Assembly (NCBI GenBank): GCA_030019335.1
Contig: JASEET010000004.1
Span: 62,001 to 126,000, forward strand
Length of the DNA: 64,000 nucleotides
From: Candidatus Bathyarchaeia archaeon
GTDB lineage: Archaea > Thermoproteota > Bathyarchaeia > Bathyarchaeales > Bathycorpusculaceae
Direction: 5' to 3'
Within the stretch, counting starts at the first letter, position 1; the number at the start of each line of letters is the position of its first letter. This document shows, in pieces, positions 8,088-16,433 of the stretch. The notes beneath the pieces are model-generated. The model ran no database searches, was not told the DNA's origin, and worked only from the letters and a program-made list of their open reading frames with translations. A program made the position numbers and the translations under genes.

Positions 8088-8366
8088 ATGTCTGAAAGCA
8101 ATGCAGTGTTGATCGGGAGAAAGCCAGTAATGAACTATGTACTGGCTTGCATAACCCTCTTTCACGGCGGAGCAAAAGAAGTAAATGTCAAAGCAAGAGG
8201 GAGGTCAATAAGCCGAGCGGTTGATGTCGTTGAGGTTGTCCGACGCCGATTCCTACCAGACGTGAAAGTCAAGAAGGTCGGCATTGGAACTGAACAGGTG
8301 GCACCCAGAGAAGAGGGTGGCACGCCCACAAACGTGAGCACAATCGAGATAATGCTGGAACGCTAA
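8088..8366 (+). CDS. alba: DNA/RNA-binding protein Alba
   Basis: A 92-residue Alba chromatin protein, a dimer that coats DNA and RNA. The core [19 protein letters not shown], including the acetylated-lysine context, then [20 protein letters not shown] and the C-terminal strand [11 protein letters not shown] are all present. I start at ATG 8088, after GAGGCGG; an upstream in-frame start adds five residues without support. A hairpin with CCCTCC/GGAGGG arms at 8403-8423 follows the gene and may terminate it. Confidence 0.96.
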
Positions 8367-8432
8367 ACAGTGATTCCGCATAAACGTGCAAAGCTCCGCC
8401 ACCCCTCCTTTATTTGTGGAGGGCGTTTTCTA

Positions 8433-8493
8433 GGTGAAAACAACACTATGCGACTTCTGTTTTAAAAAGTGGAATACTGTGTCAAAAGTGTTT
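8433..8493 (+). repeat. Left direct repeat: duplicated 5' end of the KH gene
   Basis: 61 bases starting GGTGAAAACAACACTATGC match 15923-15982 with three substitutions and one extra T in a T-run (about 57 of 61). It starts at what would be the GTG start codon and retains a GGAGGG ribosome site ten bases upstream. The extra T shifts the frame, so this copy cannot encode the KH protein. It may be the original gene start cut off by insertion, or an attachment site. Confidence 0.75.
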
Positions 8494-8512
8494 TATTTTT
8501 TGTGGTAGTGTT

Positions 8513-9055
8513 TTACTTTCGCTTCCTAAAGAACATTAGTTGATCTTTTTGGCATATGTATTCGAAGCCTGTTTCAAGTAATGTTTTGATTTCTTCGGGT
8601 TTTTCGGTGACTTTGACGTGGAATTCGTCGCTTTCTGTTTCGAATATGGCTTGTTCGATGTTGATGTAAATTTCTGTGCTATGGAGGCTTTTATGTCCGA
8701 GGATTTTCTTAACATGCCATGGGTCTTTTGTTTTGTGGTATTCCATTGTGGCTTTCCAGTGGCGGAAAGTGTGGAAGTGAATTTTTAGCAAGCGTGGATT
8801 GTTGGTTTTACTGGCTAAGTTTCGTTTTTTGCGCCAGAAACAGGTTTGAAGCGTATGTAGGCTTGAGAATACTTGGTCCTTCTTCTTCGGCAGAGCTTTT
8901 AACATAGTGACAAGTTTCTCGCTTATGCGTAGAAGCCTTGGATTGCTGCCTTTTTCAGGTGTTACCGTGATTAAACGTCTTTCAAAGTCTATGTCAATCC
9001 ATTTCAGTTGAGCCGCTTCGCCCGGTCTCACGCCTGTTTCCTTGAGCAGCTGCAT
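8513..9055 (-). pseudogene. Tyrosine recombinase, C-terminal catalytic fragment
   Basis: About 180 residues of a phage-type integrase catalytic domain. The catalytic set is visible: Arg10 in ETGVRPGEAAQL, the HxxR box in FHTFRHWKAT, His in ILGHKSLHST and the nucleophile Tyr in EIYINI. The N-terminal arm- and core-binding half is missing: in this frame a TAG lies nine codons upstream of the first Met. The C-terminal tail KTLLETGFEYICQKD ... FFRKRK recurs at 57.7 kb. It lies 20 bases from the left direct repeat. Confidence 0.85.
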
Positions 9056-9056
9056 T

Positions 9057-9137
9057 GACTGACGATGTAAAGCTAACTAACAAGACACTTCCGAGAAGAG
9101 CTAAAATTACCAACACAACATGGTTTTTCTCTTGCAT
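9057..9137 (-). pseudogene. Signal-peptide start of a lost gene, joined to the integrase fragment
   Basis: On the minus strand an ATG at 9135-9137 opens MQEKNHVVLVILALLGSVLL and then VSFTSSV, a typical hydrophobic export signal. Within a few codons the frame enters the integrase sequence out of register and stops at 8994. This looks like the 5' end of a secreted or membrane protein gene fused by a deletion or recombination to the integrase remnant. Confidence 0.4.
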
Positions 9138-9240
9138 GTTCTTCTCTCATTTGCATATGTAAGCCAGTGAATTTTAAAACTTTTGGACAAAACATACATT
9201 ATGACTTTTGGAAGAAACACTGTTATGGATTAGGCCAAGC

Positions 9241-9849
9241 TCATCTTATTGGTTGTCTTAGGACAGTTTTCATTCTTTCTGGTGCTGATCTGCGAGGATC
9301 GCTCAGATATATTTCGTGATGTTTTCCCCTCAATTCATAACCATTTTCCTTGATAAAGTTGTGAAGTTTCTCAATGGTTGGGCCTTCAGCAGAATATGGA
9401 CCAATATGCATTATCTGGGCTGACAAGCCTTCGTGAAAAGTTTCAAACCTGATTTTGGAAAGGGCAGGTGGATTTTTCTTCTTCTCAACTTGTTCAAGAG
9501 CTTTGCTAACGAGTTCTTCTGTCACATATTCTGGCTGCATAATCATCGATGTCCATTTCCATATGTCTTTGTTTTCCATGCTGAATTGAGTCATGTCATC
9601 AGTCCACCACAGACCTTCAAGAGGCATGACCCCATAATCAATCGCTTTTCCTTTCTTAATCATAAATTTGAGAGCATAAGATACAGCAAACAACGCTTCA
9701 ACGGCATCTTTGTATTCCTTCGCTGTGTTTGGATCACCTGCTCCGTCTAACATCAGAAAGTTCATTTTTTGAACGTCAACAATCGCAACTTTCTTTACAG
9801 AAGGATTGTATAAGTGCTTGAGTTCTCTTTTGAAGTCAATTCTTGTCAT
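9241..9849 (-). CDS. GyrI-like small-molecule-binding domain protein
   Basis: A 202-residue stand-alone GyrI-like (SRPBCC-type/effector-binding) protein. Typical features are MLDGAGDPNTAKEYKDAVEALF near the start, MPLEGLWW, the AQIMHIGPYSAEGPTIEKLH segment and the C-terminal HEIYLSDPRRSAPERMKTVLRQPIR split here as HEIYLSDPRR and APERMKTVLRQ. Such proteins bind drugs or metabolites or act as hydrolases; the ligand here is unknown. The start ATG is preceded by GGAGG. It sits inside the accessory island. Confidence 0.88.
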   Translation of the reverse strand: MTRIDFKRELKHLYNPSVKKVAIVDVQKMNFLMLDGAGDPNTAKEYKDAVEALFAVSYALKFMIKKGKAIDYGVMPLEGLWWTDDMTQFSMENKDIWKWTSMIMQPEYVTEELVSKALEQVEKKKNPPALSKIRFETFHEGLSAQIMHIGPYSAEGPTIEKLHNFIKENGYELRGKHHEIYLSDPRRSAPERMKTVLRQPIR

Positions 9850-10132
9850 ATACCGTCCTCCTTCGTATGTCTCCTTCTTCAGTTTTTATGCTTTATGGAA
9901 GAATCTTCGATTGAATTCCATTTTAGTAGCCTAAGCTTTCTCTCTTTTCCACAAAAGGTAAACTTTCGTCTGAAGAAGCATCCCACATATCTTTATTAAC
10001 TTTGCCAACTTTTCAAGGTCCGCATTTTCGACACCATCAGACTTCTACGCATTCCTCAACAAACTCTTAAAGGCTATAACAGAAGAGGAGCCAAACCAGC
10101 TGGAAACCGAAGTCTTAAAATTTCTCGTAGGC

Positions 10133-10369
10133 ATGGCCTACTGGAGCCACATAACACTCGACCTCTACGAATTCAAAATCGCCCACATAGCAGAAAAACT
10201 CAAAACCAAAAAGAAAGAAGTGGCAAAAGCCGTGAAAAAACTCAAAAGGCTCAGAATAATAGACGCATGTGACTCCACAGCCGACAGCACCCTTGAAGAA
10301 AGGATGTACAAGCTGTGCGAACAATACGCAAAATTAAAGAATCCGCCCCTGACGTTCTTCTACCGCTAA
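10133..10369 (+). CDS. Hypothetical protein, probably 5'-truncated
   Basis: From ATG 10133 it encodes 78 residues (AYWSHITLDLYEF, AEKLKTKKKEVAKAVKKLKR, LRIIDACD), a helical, HTH-like unit. The same frame stays open back to a TGA at 9971-9973 and reads convincing protein (FSTPSDFYAFLNKLLKAITE) with no ATG, GTG or TTG. So the true N-terminus seems lost, and this is probably a truncated gene or one using an unusual start. It is followed 13 bases on by another small gene in the same orientation. Family not recognised. Confidence 0.5.
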   Translation: MAYWSHITLDLYEFKIAHIAEKLKTKKKEVAKAVKKLKRLRIIDACDSTADSTLEERMYKLCEQYAKLKNPPLTFFYR

Positions 10370-10382
10370 GAGCAAAGACAAG

Positions 10383-10637
10383 GTGGTTCAAGTGAGTAAA
10401 GCAATATTAATGTGCATCCTTTCGGAAATACATGTTCGGCTCAGCGAATTTGAAACTGAAGAGCTTTACCGCGAACTTCTCGCCTACTTCGGACTTATAG
10501 GCGCAACAGACGAGTGCCAAGCCCTCGAAAACGCGTGGAAAGACCCATACAACAGATGCGAAATCGAAGAATTCATAAAAGCATGGCTAAAAAGAAAACA
10601 AAGACGGAAAGGAGAAACCATCACAGAAGTTGTTTGA
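10383..10637 (+). CDS. Hypothetical protein
   Basis: 84 residues, helical, starting GTG-GTT-CAA or a nearby GTG (MVQVSKAILMCILSEIHVRL). It has a run of acidic and aromatic residues (FETEELYRELLAYFGL) and a basic C-terminal stretch KAWLKRKQRRKG. It is likely co-transcribed with the preceding small gene. No family recognised. The next 128 bases before the methyltransferase show nothing. Confidence 0.5.
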   Translation: MVQVSKAILMCILSEIHVRLSEFETEELYRELLAYFGLIGATDECQALENAWKDPYNRCEIEEFIKAWLKRKQRRKGETITEVV

Positions 10638-10765
10638 AGCTGCTGAACTTCCAGTTCTCTCTTTTAGATTTTGCTCTCTGAAGATTTGATAAAAAGCATG
10701 TAGTTATGCGGAGCCTATTTGATTATGCCGAATTATGATCACGCGCCTGTTTGCTTTATCTATCT

Positions 10766-11860
10766 TTAGGTGGAGCTGTAGGGGTTTAATTTGGTTTCAA
10801 ACGCTTGAAAGTTTGTTGCAGTTGTTTGATCGGGCTGAGTGGGTTGTGTACGTTGAACCTGCTCACCTAATGGACGCTCACTCCACCATTTCATGCTATC
10901 TTTATGCCGGCGTATGTCTTCGTCTTTTTCGGGCTTTCTAAATATGAATAAGTGTTCATAGAATAGTAAATAGAAATCCATGTAGTAGCCTTTTGCTTTT
11001 TTGTCTATGCATACCCAGCATTCGTCTGCTACTTTTGTTAGTCCTCCCCACTTCTCCCTCGTCGTCTTTGTTTTCCATTGGTATTTTACGATGTCTTCTC
11101 TCAGAATGAAGCCTGCATCGAGGAAGGCTTGCATGACACGGAAGGCTATTGGAACGTGGTGCCTATGTCTCCTTGTGTCTCCCACAAGTATGGTACAGAA
11201 CCTTCCGGACTTTAAAACTCTGTAACTTTCTTTTGCTATTTCTCTCATTCCTTGTATGTATTCGTCGATGCTGCGTATGGCTGATAAGTCTCCTAATATT
11301 TTGTCTTTCTTGTTGTATGGTATTATGCTTGCGTATGGTGGATGTGTGGCTATTAAATGGATGGATTCATCTTCAATTAGGTTTAGGTTTCTTGCATCAC
11401 CTACATAGGTTTTTATTTCAACTTTAGGAAAATCAGGGTCAAGTGGATTATATTCAAAATCGAGCCTGTCAAGTGCAAGCATGATGCAGTTTAGGTTTAT
11501 GTCTGCGCCTATGGCATTTCTGCCGAGAAGTTTACATTCAATCAAAGTGGTGCCTGACCCGCACATCTGGTCTAAAACTAACTCGCCTGGTTTTGAGTAT
11601 CTAAGGATTATGTTTCTCGCCATCTGCGGGGGCCAATTTCCTCTGAAATTGCCTTGATGGGTTGCCCATGTCCCCCTTTCTGGAAATGACCAAACGTTTA
11701 TTTTTTCGAGCTCAAAATCTTTTGGCTGATATTCCTTAATTTTTTTAGGTTGCCCTATTTTTATTTTGGTGTTTTCTATTGTTATCTCGTTATGAGCTTT
11801 TATGAACTCTTTGTAGTCTTTGTATGTGATTTCCTTCATGCTTATGCATTTTTCAGACAT
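10766..11860 (-). CDS. Site-specific DNA methyltransferase (N4-C or N6-A type)
   Basis: A 364-residue amino-methyltransferase. The SAM-binding motif I DQMCGSGTT is at 97-105 and the catalytic motif IV reads HPPY at 173-176, preceded by the characteristic SFPERGTWATHQGNFRGN and PPQMARNIILRYSKPGE. The HPPY box leans to N4-cytosine but does not settle the target base. I start at ATG 11858-11860, preceded by AAGGTG; this start overlaps the stop of the RHH gene. No restriction enzyme is recognisable next to it, so it could be solitary or paired with the unknown divergent gene at 12.1 kb. Confidence 0.88.
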   Translation of the reverse strand: MSEKCISMKEITYKDYKEFIKAHNEITIENTKIKIGQPKKIKEYQPKDFELEKINVWSFPERGTWATHQGNFRGNWPPQMARNIILRYSKPGELVLDQMCGSGTTLIECKLLGRNAIGADINLNCIMLALDRLDFEYNPLDPDFPKVEIKTYVGDARNLNLIEDESIHLIATHPPYASIIPYNKKDKILGDLSAIRSIDEYIQGMREIAKESYRVLKSGRFCTILVGDTRRHRHHVPIAFRVMQAFLDAGFILREDIVKYQWKTKTTREKWGGLTKVADECWVCIDKKAKGYYMDFYLLFYEHLFIFRKPEKDEDIRRHKDSMKWWSERPLGEQVQRTQPTQPDQTTATNFQAFETKLNPYSST

Positions 11861-12014
11861 TTTTTGCACCTTTGCTGTTTTTACGTACCCAATCATGGAT
11901 TGCTTCTTCGATGGCCTTTTTCAAAAATCCTTTTCTTGCTTCGAATTTTTCCACTGCTACTCTTCTAAATTCCCTCTCGAGGTTGTCATCTATATCGAGG
12001 TTTATTTTTCCCAT
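11853..12014 (-). CDS. Small RHH-like (antitoxin/CopG-type) protein
   Basis: A 53-residue protein starting MGKINLDIDDNLEREFRRVA, with the pattern of a beta strand followed by two helices seen in ribbon-helix-helix regulators (VEKFEARKGFLKKAIEEAIH). It overlaps the methyltransferase start by eight bases, so the two are translationally coupled. It may autoregulate the pair, as control proteins of methyltransferase operons do; this is inferred. Confidence 0.6.
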   Translation of the reverse strand: MGKINLDIDDNLEREFRRVAVEKFEARKGFLKKAIEEAIHDWVRKNSKGAKNV

Positions 12015-12119
12015 TTTAATTCATGATAGATATCTTGCTTTCTACATATAAAGTATTCTTGGCAACATTTAAACAAAAACCTACCGAATTCTTTTCAGAA
12101 AGCCACGAGAGAAAAAGCC

Positions 12120-12680
12120 ATGAATATACATGATGCGGCTAAGGTTTTAAGAAACCTAAAACCTGGAGAACACATAGAGATGTATAAAGGCGCGAGAGGA
12201 ACCATTATCTCCGCAACTCGCACAGACAGAATTTGTCCTCACGACTTCGCCGTGGGCTTAAAGATTCCGGGTAGAGATGAGTTTTATCCTACACATATTC
12301 GGCTCTTGTTTGACTTGTATTTAAAACGTCTTTCTAATGAAAAAGATGCTCATTACCTATTTTGCACTCTTGAGAAAGTTTATGATGGCGATGACCCTGT
12401 TAATTTGGCTCCCCAAGTATTGAAACTAATTTTTCCAATGCAGTTAGACGACCCTGATGTCAATCTTTATTATGCTCAACTCTTAATGATTGAACAAGAG
12501 TTTAACTATGGTCCGCAGGGATGTAAAAAGGGAAAAGTCCATCCGCCGAAAGAGTTTTTAATGCGCTTCGTTAGATGGGTAGCTTCAGGAGAAGAAATAG
12601 ACAGGATAATTTTCCTTGCTGTCAGCAATATTCCGCCACCTCAAAAATACGCCAAACGTCTGCAAGATAAAAAGTATTGA
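12120..12680 (+). CDS. Hypothetical protein, divergent from the methyltransferase pair
   Basis: 186 residues, soluble, no membrane segments. N-terminal KVLRNLKPGEHIEMYKGARG looks like a small beta-rich domain; the middle (FDLYLKRLSNEKDAHYLFCT) and the end (EFLMRFVRWVASGEEIDRII) are helical. There is no clear PD-(D/E)xK nuclease signature. Its position divergent from an RHH-methyltransferase operon makes a restriction or regulatory partner conceivable, but nothing in the sequence proves it. Confidence 0.65.
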   Translation: MNIHDAAKVLRNLKPGEHIEMYKGARGTIISATRTDRICPHDFAVGLKIPGRDEFYPTHIRLLFDLYLKRLSNEKDAHYLFCTLEKVYDGDDPVNLAPQVLKLIFPMQLDDPDVNLYYAQLLMIEQEFNYGPQGCKKGKVHPPKEFLMRFVRWVASGEEIDRIIFLAVSNIPPPQKYAKRLQDKKY

Positions 12681-12720
12681 TTTTTGGTCGAAACCTTAAA
12701 AGTTTTTCATTTAAAGAAAT

Positions 12721-12912
12721 TTACTTAATTTTGTATACGCCTCTCGCGACGCGCTCTATTAAGCCAACTTTTGATAGACCTATAACAGAGCTTCTTATCG
12801 TGTTATAATTTATGTTGGTTGAAGCCTTAATTTCCTTAATTGAAATCGTTTTAGCCTCTTTAATGATTTCGTAGATTTCTTTTCTCTTTTCTCCCCTGAG
12901 CTTCTGACTCAT
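12721..12912 (-). CDS. Small winged-helix DNA-binding protein
   Basis: 63 residues: KRKEIYEIIKEAKTISIKEI, then NYNTIRSSVIGLSKVGLIER and the wing GVYKIK. This is a bare wHTH with no effector domain, as common in archaeal plasmids and islands. It converges on the 12.1 kb gene. Target unknown. Confidence 0.65.
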   Translation of the reverse strand: MSQKLRGEKRKEIYEIIKEAKTISIKEIKASTNINYNTIRSSVIGLSKVGLIERVARGVYKIK

Positions 12913-13070
12913 GACATGCGCCGCTTTAATCTTAGTTCATTACTTGTTATAAGATTTACCTAAATAACTTTTGCCACAGCTTCTTCTTCACTTCTCTAAA
13001 CCCATATTCCAAAGCCATACTTGAGAGACAGAAACTTGTTAAAGCCTAACCTTCAAACTTTGCTTTAGTG

Positions 13071-13228
13071 GTGTTAGTGGCTAAGTGCAGGGACTGCCGC
13101 TTCATAGACTACTTCACATCCGAAGACAATTATGGTGCCACCAAAACAAACGCTACGTAAACCCAGAAGACAGCATATGCGAAGAATACAAGCCAAAAAT
13201 AAAAGGCCCATTAGACAAGTACATCTAA
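13071..13228 (+). pseudogene. Frameshifted small zinc-finger protein
   Basis: From GTG 13071 the frame reads VLVAKCRDCRFIDYFTSEDN and would stop at an early TAA. Shifting frame near 13134-13136 continues as CHQNKRYVNPEDSICEEYKP and ends at TAA 13226-13228. Together they make a plausible zinc-binding protein (CxxC, then C-H-x5 ... C) of about 50 residues. The break means a pseudogene or a base-call error. Between 12913 and 13070 nothing else is seen. Confidence 0.45.
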
Positions 13229-13239
13229 CTAATGCTGTG

Positions 13240-13473
13240 TTAAAGATTTTCCAAGTTTCTCATAAGACAAAAAGGATGTTTGCGTATAAGCTGCCCCCGA
13301 AGCTGCTTCGCTGTCTGAGTTGCGGCTGCAACCGCAGAAACCCTCAGCTTCTGGTTACACTCGCCATCAAACCTGCAGACTGCAACCTCAGTTTTGTTAC
13401 TTCCCAAACGTTTCATCCTCTGAAATTCGCATTTTCCCTTTAAGAGGCAGACGTCAAGAGTCTGCATTTTCAT
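13240..13473 (-). CDS. Small cysteine-containing hypothetical protein
   Basis: 77 residues with GAGAGG upstream of the ATG. The N-terminal half has two similar knots, CLLKGKC and CRFDGEC, giving a C-x5-C ... C-x5-C pattern that could bind zinc or form disulphides. The C-terminal half is Ala/Gln-rich and looks less protein-like. No family recognised. The 13474-13695 stretch beyond it shows nothing. Confidence 0.4.
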   Translation of the reverse strand: MKMQTLDVCLLKGKCEFQRMKRLGSNKTEVAVCRFDGECNQKLRVSAVAAATQTAKQLRGQLIRKHPFCLMRNLENL

Positions 13474-13695
13474 CCATCCTCTCTCTTAAAGAACATGAAG
13501 GCTGTGTGCACGCGCTTTACACACCGTCCCAAGGGTTCCTTCATCACTCACTCCCGACATGGATAACTACACCGTCTAAACGGTTTCATACACATCTGCT
13601 TTTAAAACCGATGGTGAAAAGACACGCCTACACAGGGGAGAGAGATAAGTTAAAGTGAAAGCTAAAACAAAGAAAAAGAGGAGGATTTTTTGTTT

Positions 13696-13779
13696 TTACT
13701 TCTTTTTAATCAGTATGGTCGCAGATAGTGACGCTGTAATTATTGCAAATACCATTAGAACAAAAGAAAAAGGGGAAGT
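13696..13779 (-). pseudogene. C-terminal membrane-anchor fragment
   Basis: In frame after the DUF5752 stop, the minus strand reads PFSFVLMVFAIITASLSATI then LIKKK and stops at 13696-13698. A Pro/Ser-led hydrophobic helix ended by lysines is the usual tail of archaeal surface proteins. Only this tail is left (an internal ATG gives 19 residues), so it is best read as a relic. Confidence 0.35.
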
Positions 13780-14038
13780 TTAGGCTGCTAAGATGCTTGC
13801 TTTCCGTCTAAGCTCCGTTAAGTATTCTGCGTATCTTGGGTATTGCTCCTCAGCCAACTCCCTGTCCTGAAGAGTTTCAGCCACCCACGTTTCAAAGTCA
13901 CCTCTGTAAAGATGGAATTCCAATGATTTAATGCTGACCTCTCTTATTTTTTCCGCAAAACTCCTCTAAAGATGAAGCACTTTCACCAGTGTAATTTCCG
14001 ATAGAAATGAAAAAGTAAAACGCATTCTCCCTTGACAT
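13780..14038 (-). pseudogene. DUF5752-like protein with a one-base frameshift
   Basis: The ATG at 14036-14038 begins MSRENAFYFFISIGNYTGES and ASSLEEF, matching the start of DUF5752-type proteins. After GAGGAGTTTT the frame breaks: removing one T of the four (13957-13960 on the plus strand) continues as AEKIREVSIKSLEFHLYRGD, FETWVAETLQDRELA, and ends YPRYAEYLTELRRKASILAA. So one inserted base disrupts an 85-residue gene. Function of the family is unknown. A copy of its tail recurs at 15.6 kb. Confidence 0.6.
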
Positions 14039-14141
14039 TTTTAAGCGAAGCCATTAGCCAATAACCTCCGATGGTAATGTTTTGCTTGTCTTTCTTTTAA
14101 AAACTTCGATGCATTATGGTGTAGGTGATAGGTGAAACTTG

Positions 14142-14489
14142 CTATGTTGAACGTTTTGGGAAAGAAAAGGGCGGACTAATGCTTGTAACGCTGTGCTCAG
14201 TACTCTTGCGCAAAAGACGTTTTATTTCCTCATAACTTTTAACGTATCGAATGCCTTTAGGAGTTGTTTTGTAGATGACCTTTTCATTTTTCTTAGTGGC
14301 TTCGAGAAGCCCCGATTTGACAAGAAAGGATAGATACCCGGTTAATTGTGCAAAGCTTAGACCTGCCTCATACATTATTTGAGTCTTATGGATGCCGTCC
14401 CTCGCAACCTTCAATATCCGCGCTATGATTTCGAGGCGATCCCTGCGTTTACGCGGGTTTTCCCAAACTTCACGGAGCAACACAATCAT
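14142..14489 (-). CDS. Winged-helix transcriptional regulator (HTH_45-like)
   Basis: A 115-residue regulator with RRDRLEIIARILKVARDGIH then KTQIMYEAGLSFAQLTGYLS, LVKSGLLE and the wing KVIYKTTPKGIRYVKSYEEI. This family is strongly expanded in Bathyarchaeia and related archaea. A relative is at 31.7 kb in this window. Its promoter faces the variant TBP gene, which it might control. Confidence 0.8.
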   Translation of the reverse strand: MIVLLREVWENPRKRRDRLEIIARILKVARDGIHKTQIMYEAGLSFAQLTGYLSFLVKSGLLEATKKNEKVIYKTTPKGIRYVKSYEEIKRLLRKSTEHSVTSISPPFSFPKRST

Positions 14490-14597
14490 CTAAGACTGTT
14501 CTATGAGGACATCAGACATCAATACCTAAAAAGAGTATTCCCAAAAAAGACACGTATCTTAACGTAAAAATGTCAATATTTGCTAATTAGGATTCTG

Positions 14598-14611
14598 AAA
14601 TTTGCAAATTT
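14598..14611. promoter_or_regulatory. Perfect 14-bp palindrome upstream of the variant TBP gene
   Basis: AAATTTGCAAATTT is its own reverse complement. It lies in the 193-base gap between the winged-helix gene (minus) and the TBP gene (plus), where an operator would be expected. An A+T-rich palindrome can arise by chance. Confidence 0.3.
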
Positions 14612-14682
14612 GGCGAAACATTAAAATCCACCTACAACTTGTGTTTTGTAGAGAATGATTGATTACGTGGTTCTGAGGAGAA

Positions 14683-15534
14683 GTGTTTGAAAGAGAGAAG
14701 GTTGAAACGACAGTTAAAGTCGTAAACGTGGTTGCTTCTGCAACGTTAGGACAGAGAGTAAACCTTGATGCTGTGGTCGAAGGTTTTCCCAACGCCGAAT
14801 TCCCTTCAAAGCGATTTCCTGGACTCGTCTTTAGGCTGAAGAAGCCAAAAACCGCCACCTTAATCTTTCGTTCAGGCAAAATTATCTGCGCGGGCGGAAG
14901 ATCAGAAAACGAGGCAAGAAAGGCCGTTGAGAATGTAATCAGGGAACTCACCAAAAGAGGCATAATTATCCCCAAAAAGTCAGAAGTAAAGATAAACAAC
15001 ATCGTCGCTTCAGCAAACTTGAGGCGGACGGTTGACCTCGAGTCAGCATCCATGTTGCAAGGGACAATGTATGAACCTGATCAGTTCCCCGCCCTCATCT
15101 ATCGGATGGACGACCCGAAAGTGGTGTTCCTCATATTTTCCACTGGAAGACTGATTTGCGTCGGTGCCAAAAATGAGGAGGAAATCCATAGAGCTATTAG
15201 AAAACTCATTCAGAAGCTTGACGTCGCGGGCGCCTCTAAAAGTCCTTCTTTTGGAAGACCTGATACAGATAGCCAAATGAAGTGTGTAGAAGACATTCCT
15301 GTAAGCCGGTTCAAATTAACCGATTTCACATCTTCAGATTCCCAAGGAAAAGCATGCATCTACGTGGATGGGTTATGGTGTAACAATAAGTTATGTGATG
15401 GACCTCCATGCAAATTCGCCAATTTGATACAGAGAAAGCTTGTTGACGGCTTATACGGATATTGGGGCTTCCACTGGCAACAGGGATGGTACACGGCAGA
15501 GACCAAGAAATCGCAAAGGAAATTTAATAATTAA
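14683..15534 (+). CDS. tbp: TATA-binding protein with extra cysteine-bearing C-terminal domain
   Basis: Residues 10-92 and 101-180 are the two TBP repeats (VKVVNVVASATLGQRVNLDA ... FPGLVFRLKKPK; VKINNIVASANLRRTVDLES ... FPALIYRMDDPK), each with the strand ending in IFRSGKIICAGG or IFSTGRLICVGA. Archaeal TBPs normally end here, at about 180-200 residues. This one runs to 283, adding a domain with Cys201, Cys225, Cys233, Cys238 and Cys243 (LWCNNKLCDGPPC) and an aromatic stretch YGYWGFHWQQGWY. The start is GTG after GAGGAG. The setting inside an island suggests an accessory TBP. Confidence 0.9.
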   Translation: MFEREKVETTVKVVNVVASATLGQRVNLDAVVEGFPNAEFPSKRFPGLVFRLKKPKTATLIFRSGKIICAGGRSENEARKAVENVIRELTKRGIIIPKKSEVKINNIVASANLRRTVDLESASMLQGTMYEPDQFPALIYRMDDPKVVFLIFSTGRLICVGAKNEEEIHRAIRKLIQKLDVAGASKSPSFGRPDTDSQMKCVEDIPVSRFKLTDFTSSDSQGKACIYVDGLWCNNKLCDGPPCKFANLIQRKLVDGLYGYWGFHWQQGWYTAETKKSQRKFNN

Positions 15535-15613
15535 AACGCCAAAAGTCAAACGAATGCGCGTGCGTATCTTTGATTTGTAACTCTATGGGTACTGACACGT
15601 GTAACCCAGTATC

Positions 15614-15721
15614 TCATGTCGTTTTTACCAATGCAGCTAAAGAATCAGCTTGCGCGCTTAACCTTGTGATATATTCTGCGTATCTTGGATAGAACTGTAC
15701 GGCTTTGCGTTTAAGCCTCAT
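15614..15721 (-). pseudogene. Repeated tail of a DUF5752-like gene
   Basis: The minus strand reads MRLKRKAVQFYPRYAEYITR and LSAQADSLAALVKTT (stop 15614-15616). It resembles the tail of the broken DUF5752 gene at 13.8 kb (QYPRYAEYLTELRRKASILAA); the two share TATTCTGCGTATCTTGG on the plus strand. The frame is open only from 15757, so this is a fragment. It is the only thing seen in the 15535-15923 gap apart from the KH promoter. Confidence 0.4.
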
Positions 15722-15841
15722 GTAACGTCTTGCACCGATTGTTTTAGGCGTTCTACCCTAAATGAAACTCACTTAAACACATCATTACCCAAAACGTGAA
15801 GCTAACAAACTTATAAAAGACTGTTCATTTCATTTATTTCC

Positions 15842-15849
15842 ATATAAAA
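15842..15849 (+). promoter_or_regulatory. TATA box for the KH gene and aspS
   Basis: ATATAAAA about 80 bases before the KH start codon, in an A+T-rich stretch. It lies inside the right end of the putative island, so if the insertion model holds, the element supplied a new promoter to the gene it split. Confidence 0.4.
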
Positions 15850-15922
15850 AGCTCAAAAGATGGAGGTAAAAAACCTTAAAATAAACGCAAACAGAAAAAG
15901 GGAGAATGTGCGGGGAGATTTC

Positions 15923-15982
15923 GGTGAAAACAACACTATGCAACTTCTGTTTAAAAAGCGGAATACTATGTCAAAAGTGTTT
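15923..15982 (+). repeat. Right direct repeat, at the start of the intact KH gene
   Basis: 60 bases matching 8433-8493 in the same orientation, with three substitutions and one gap. It begins at the base before the probable GTG start of the KH gene and covers its first 19 codons, including the CxxC...CxxC finger. Confidence 0.75.
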
Positions 15983-16433
15983 GGCGAAGGCTAAGTCTGG
16001 GGAGATAAGCGAATTAGACTTAAAAATCGCCCGCCTACTTTTGTCTCTGGAAGAGAAATATCCTTCTCTTCAGAATGTTTATTTTCATAAGGCTGTGGAT
16101 GTTGACCGGACATTAGCTATAATTGTTGGACGAGGTGATGTTCTCCGCCTTTTGGGGTATGGTGGAAAAATCATTAAGGCGTTGGGGGCGAAAGTTGGTA
16201 AAACCATTCGTGTTTTGGAGTATGGTGTTGACAATAGAAAGTTTTTGGAGGATTTGTTTGCTCCCTTAAGCATAGTAACGATAAACACTATTTGGCTGCC
16301 TGATGGAACAACAGAGACTAGGGTTATTTTGAAGAAGAGGCGGGGGAGGCAACCGCCTTTTGATGTAAAGGCTTTAAAGGAGATTGCCCGTAAAGTTCGA
16401 AACATGACCTTGCGTGTGGAGTTTGCAGACTAG
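15924..16433 (+). CDS. Zinc-finger KH-domain RNA-binding protein
   Basis: From GTG 15924 (GGGGAG seven bases upstream) it is 169 residues; an ATG six codons earlier is open but badly placed relative to its ribosome site. Residues 6-19 form a CxxC-x6-CxxC finger. The KH-like part is VGRGDVLRLLGYGGKIIKAL, followed by LGAKVGKTIRVLEYG. This protein is regularly found next to aspS in crenarchaea and relatives and is annotated as a KH-domain or NusA-like protein; its role is unknown. It is 16 bases ahead of aspS. Its first 19 codons are duplicated at 8.4 kb. Confidence 0.85.
   Translation: MKTTLCNFCLKSGILCQKCLAKAKSGEISELDLKIARLLLSLEEKYPSLQNVYFHKAVDVDRTLAIIVGRGDVLRLLGYGGKIIKALGAKVGKTIRVLEYGVDNRKFLEDLFAPLSIVTINTIWLPDGTTETRVILKKRRGRQPPFDVKALKEIARKVRNMTLRVEFAD

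Follow-up and report, generated by a model that had tools for sequence, protein, structure and literature searches.

Integration of mobile elements in archaea has been described mainly at tRNA genes and, in the case of protein genes, at their 3′ ends. Among 68 mapped thaumarchaeal elements, all 14 insertions into protein genes are 3′-distal, and the 5′ end of a tRNA gene is used once (PMC6563490). The pTN3-like integrases represent the archaeal tRNA 5′ case, as summarized in a review (Cossu et al. 2017, reviewed in PMC8371274). In bacteria, the dusA island IMEVchUSA3 replaces the promoter and N-terminus of its target (PMC8409611); according to the work cited there, the integrative and conjugative element SXT does likewise at prfC. 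Our survey of the literature, which was not exhaustive, revealed no description of a protein-gene 5′ end as an archaeal target. Here we describe such a case in a Candidatus Bathyarchaeia archaeon (GenBank assembly GCA_030019335.1), in a stretch of 64,000 nt of contig JASEET010000004.1 (positions 62,001 to 126,000), hereafter the window. Positions 8433–15982 of the window are a real, site-specific, and now degraded integrative element located at the 5′ end of a gene encoding an RNA-binding KH/zinc-finger protein (the KH gene).

Repeats at the element ends

The element is bounded by direct repeats of the KH gene 5′ end, 61 nt long on the left (attL) and 60 nt on the right (attR), which differ by three substitutions and one additional T on the attL side (Table 1). 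The match is far beyond chance: a BLAST comparison of a 121-nt query spanning the left copy with the 1.64-Mb genome found two sites only, the second copy with E = 3e-20. The KH gene is intact at attR, as in integrative elements of tyrosine recombinases, whose att repeats restore the target gene. At the other end, the gene of a tyrosine recombinase family integrase terminates 19 nt inside attL; its N-terminal part is absent, and only the catalytic domain is left. GC content does not distinguish the element (40.5% versus 41.1%). An initial annotation, made from the sequence alone, had reported these repeats and the truncated integrase just inside the left copy, along with a methyltransferase, winged helix-turn-helix (wHTH) proteins, broken genes, and a TATA-binding protein (TBP) between the copies. 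The coordinates and orientation of the repeats and the state of the integrase were confirmed, and Pfam and PHROG matches agree with the listed contents.

Empty and occupied sites in related genomes

In all 52 Bathyarchaeia loci that allowed both genes to be placed, alba is directly followed by the KH gene, with a gap of 50–83 nt and a single copy of the site, which is the arrangement that the initial annotation had proposed to look for in element-free relatives. In the window, the left KH remnant lies 70 nt past alba, and the intact KH gene is separated from alba by 7,560 nt. Since the gene order lrp–alba–KH–aspS is otherwise conserved in most closer relatives, the island is an insertion. A 7-kb island without an integrase was seen in no relative examined. 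The contigs of two further loci (L059 and L065) stop at the KH start codon or at codon 21 and possibly represent more occupied sites; a search for Alba in these two genomes revealed distant paralogues only.

The suggested search for integrase homologues at the same site revealed a second occupied locus in the metagenome-assembled genome (MAG) Yes71-20 (G025), where the element is split across two contigs. An isolated 20-codon KH start adjoins the same integrase on one of them (C14); the other (C70) carries the tail of the TBP and, immediately upstream of KH, the same right end. The integrase DNA of the two genomes is identical at 557 of 558 nt, and 318 of the 329 nt aligned over the right end agree, whereas the identity of the host genes is 90% for alba, 82% for KH, 79% for sucC, and 78% for aspS. 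By the identity of the AspS protein, two loci with empty sites, L037 (90%) and L036 (88%), are closer to the window than Yes71-20 (84%). A search of 163 order-level genomes for further copies of the element found it only in the window genome (G000) and in Yes71-20. The near-identical integrase in hosts with diverged genes, together with the empty sites of closer relatives, argues that the element most likely reached the KH site in at least two separate events. Past movement is also suggested by the near-identity of the copies in these two divergent hosts. The initial annotation had taken the divergence between the repeats as a sign of an old event. This was not supported, because the near-identity with Yes71-20 indicates a recent spread, though the element is now degraded; the differences between attL and attR can reflect the difference between the element site and the host site and not age.

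Junctions, proposed mechanism, and alternative explanations

The region upstream of KH at attR contains the TATA-like motifs TTATAAAA (15811–15818) and ATATAAAA (15842–15849) and the Shine-Dalgarno sequence GGGGAG (15912–15917). The attR copies of the window and Yes71-20 are identical as far as ...TTTAAAAAG, and beyond it they show host-like divergence, with five differences in the final 24 nt. Most differences between the attL copies fall in the 5′ halves. When the crossover is placed from the attL and attR differences, the right end favours nt 27–36 of the repeat, and the left end agrees incompletely; an exchange around KH codons 9–12 would be the simplest reading. As in 5′-end integration of the SXT/dusA type, the element supplies the new upstream region of the target and its N-terminal codons, here through approximately codon 11–12, and the replacement start proposed in the initial annotation is borne out at the sequence level.

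The native leader of KH is stranded on the other side of the element. Most relatives with an empty site (e.g., L035, L048, and L083) have the conserved CCCTCC-loop-GGAGGG sequence between alba and KH, and it is predicted to pair with the KH Shine-Dalgarno sequence. The stem-loop in the window has no match in Rfam. Covariation in the relatives is almost absent, so the claim is limited to the sequence conservation of the leader.

Very probably, the now degraded element was integrated into the KH 5′ end by a tyrosine integrase, and KH was rebuilt at attR. The recombination, presumably catalysed by this particular integrase, would have taken place between the chromosomal KH 5′ end and a site on the element with a copy of the first KH codons. 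Integration would have separated KH from alba and the native leader, both of which remained at attL, and KH would have been rebuilt with the upstream region, Shine-Dalgarno sequence, GTG start, and approximately the first 11–12 codons of the element, so that the KH protein of the host would have kept its full length. The integrase later lost its N-terminal part, which probably locked the element in place, and the element would be immobile at present.

Several points weigh against this reading. The Yes71-20 element lies on two contigs, and the cargo beside its integrase differs from that in the window. An intact integrase reading frame is found in neither copy; the Yes71-20 gene has kept its N-terminal part and is frameshifted by 1 nt, which may be an error of the assembly. 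In the second half of attL, which is expected to be element-derived, the two copies disagree at two sites, and the crossover point can be placed only approximately. Queries with attP, the integrase, the TBP, and the whole element against viral contigs, phages, and plasmids returned no near copy, and neither a free circular form nor attP was present among these sequences. Promoter activity of the element-supplied region at attR is putative.

The presence of the element at the same site in both genomes might be explained by a single ancient insertion that passed by vertical descent to Yes71-20 and the lineage of the window and was lost elsewhere. However, the divergence of the element (557 of 558 nt identical in the integrase) is far below that of the host genes (78–82%), and relatives nearer to the window than Yes71-20 by aspS have empty sites, so inheritance from a common ancestor fails to explain the pattern; we regard it as very unlikely. 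The broken integrase and the mostly ordinary cargo would be compatible with a chance or local duplication of the KH 5′ end beside an unrelated integrase, the 7 kb having been inserted otherwise. It is hardly conceivable that such a duplication would leave the remnant at the distance from alba seen in empty sites and the integrase directly at the repeat, with the same junctions in a second, independent genome. An assembly chimera is a concern for a draft genome in 73 contigs compared with relatives that are metagenome assemblies, but the locus is on a single 142-kb contig with syntenic flanks on either side, and the same two junctions recur in the independently assembled Yes71-20, which makes a chimera extremely improbable.

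Gene content, related integrases, and comparison with described elements

Table 1. Features of the integrated element and its flanks (positions in the window).
Feature	Position	Strand	Evidence
alba gene, left host flank	8088..8366	+	lrp-alba-KH-aspS synteny in relatives
Native KH leader: CCCTCC-9 nt-GGAGGG stem-loop with native Shine-Dalgarno	8403..8423	+	
attL, displaced KH 5′ end: start codon and ~19 codons, frame broken by extra T	8433..8493	+	
Tyrosine integrase remnant, C-terminal catalytic part only	8513..9055	-	Phage_integrase PF00589 E=7e-20
GyrI-like protein	9241..9849	-	Pfam E=2.7e-19
wHTH fragment	10133..10369	+	Weak Pfam/PHROG regulator matches
N6/N4 DNA methyltransferase	10766..11896	-	PF01555 E=4.1e-29; phrog_67 E=1.7e-26
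186-aa protein, no family match (Pfam, PHROG)	12120..12680	+	
Small wHTH protein	12721..12912	-	Pfam/PHROG
HTH_45 winged-helix protein	14142..14489	-	PF14947 E=1.2e-19
Element-borne TBP, 283 aa, C-terminal extension ~100 aa	14683..15534	+	PF00352 E=2.7e-55
Element-supplied region upstream of KH	15810..15922	+	Conserved in Yes71-20 (318/329 over right end); unlike native leader
attR, element-derived KH start (to ~15958), fused onto host KH gene	15923..15982	+	
KH/zinc-finger gene, integration target, intact, GTG start 15924	15924..16433	+	Synteny with aspS

The element TBP shares approximately 60% identity with chromosomal TBPs. The identity of the family's further TBPs to it is 48–61%, and nearly all of them align only to approximately residue 175–190; the Cys-containing C-terminal extension is absent from the family's other TBP matches. 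In Yes71-20, the TBP tail is also located near attR. Two of the broken fragments within the element are related, share a 20-bp repeat (13823–13842 and 15672–15691, 95%), and resemble a DUF5752-like gene.

Targets of 40 related integrases, 50–69% identical to that of the window, were assigned by reading the gene beside each integrase; the assignments are positional, the protein names come from sequence reading, and a distal repeat was seen in some cases only. The census includes 17 tRNA 5′ ends (one a fragment), seven tRNA 3′ ends, three RNase P RNA 3′ ends (L162, L166, and L174 are at this target), six protein 3′ ends, four protein 5′ ends, and three integrases without assignment. The protein 5′ cases are the iorA leader, a PHP gene, and, by position only, pyrB and isochorismatase, for which a search for distal att copies found none. 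The G017 MAG contains both an occupied iorA 5′ leader (L175, G017:C11) and an empty one (L240, G017:C66), which suggests a strain mixture, and G098 has an isolated 25-bp segment from the start of the PHP gene. On the phylogenetic tree, the window integrase groups with two integrases, one of them from the same genome, whose target is a Zn-ribbon gene 3′ end; the larger group around these three contains many integrases at tRNA 5′ ends. The window genome itself, beyond the window, has a partial integrase at a Zn-ribbon gene 3′ end, 69% identical to that of the window (L190, G000:C44:55301-55615). The chances are even, in our estimate, that this Bathyarchaeia family is adapted to the 5′ ends of tRNA and protein genes, its elements repeatedly taking over host promoters and starts and, at KH, detaching the gene from both alba and a conserved leader with a possible role in controlling KH translation.

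The empty sites and the independent occupied site support an archaeal case of integration at a protein-gene 5′ end. Targets of this kind are known in bacteria, and the archaeal case is new relative to the literature found. In archaea, a conserved host gene can have its start and upstream region exchanged for those of an integrated element, and the KH locus offers a defined site for studying target choice and regulatory takeover.

The Bathyarchaeia relatives share the integrase family, many of them being located beside tRNA 5′ ends and a few beside protein 5′ ends; however, in their 5′ cases the intact gene adjoins the integrase, whereas in the window the integrase and the intact KH gene are at opposite ends of the element. 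The thaumarchaeal elements (PMC6563490) are likewise archaeal, reside in protein genes, and were confirmed by empty sites, one of them providing a new stop codon, but their protein-gene insertions are 3′-distal. In the pTN3-like case, as far as it is covered in the review, the target is also rebuilt from the 5′ side and its expression depends on element-side sequence, as would be so for KH; the target, however, is a tRNA gene, and the integrase is split on integration. In suicidal integrases of the SSV/pTN3 type, att lies within the integrase gene, whereas here, and likewise in Yes71-20, it is located outside this gene, 19 nt past the stop codon. In the fate of the target, the element resembles SXT at prfC and IMEVchUSA3 at dusA, where the target 5′ end is rebuilt by the element as in KH. 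These are proteobacterial and conjugative or mobilizable, whereas the element in the window is archaeal, small, and degraded, with a KH/zinc-finger target and a predicted expression of the rebuilt gene.
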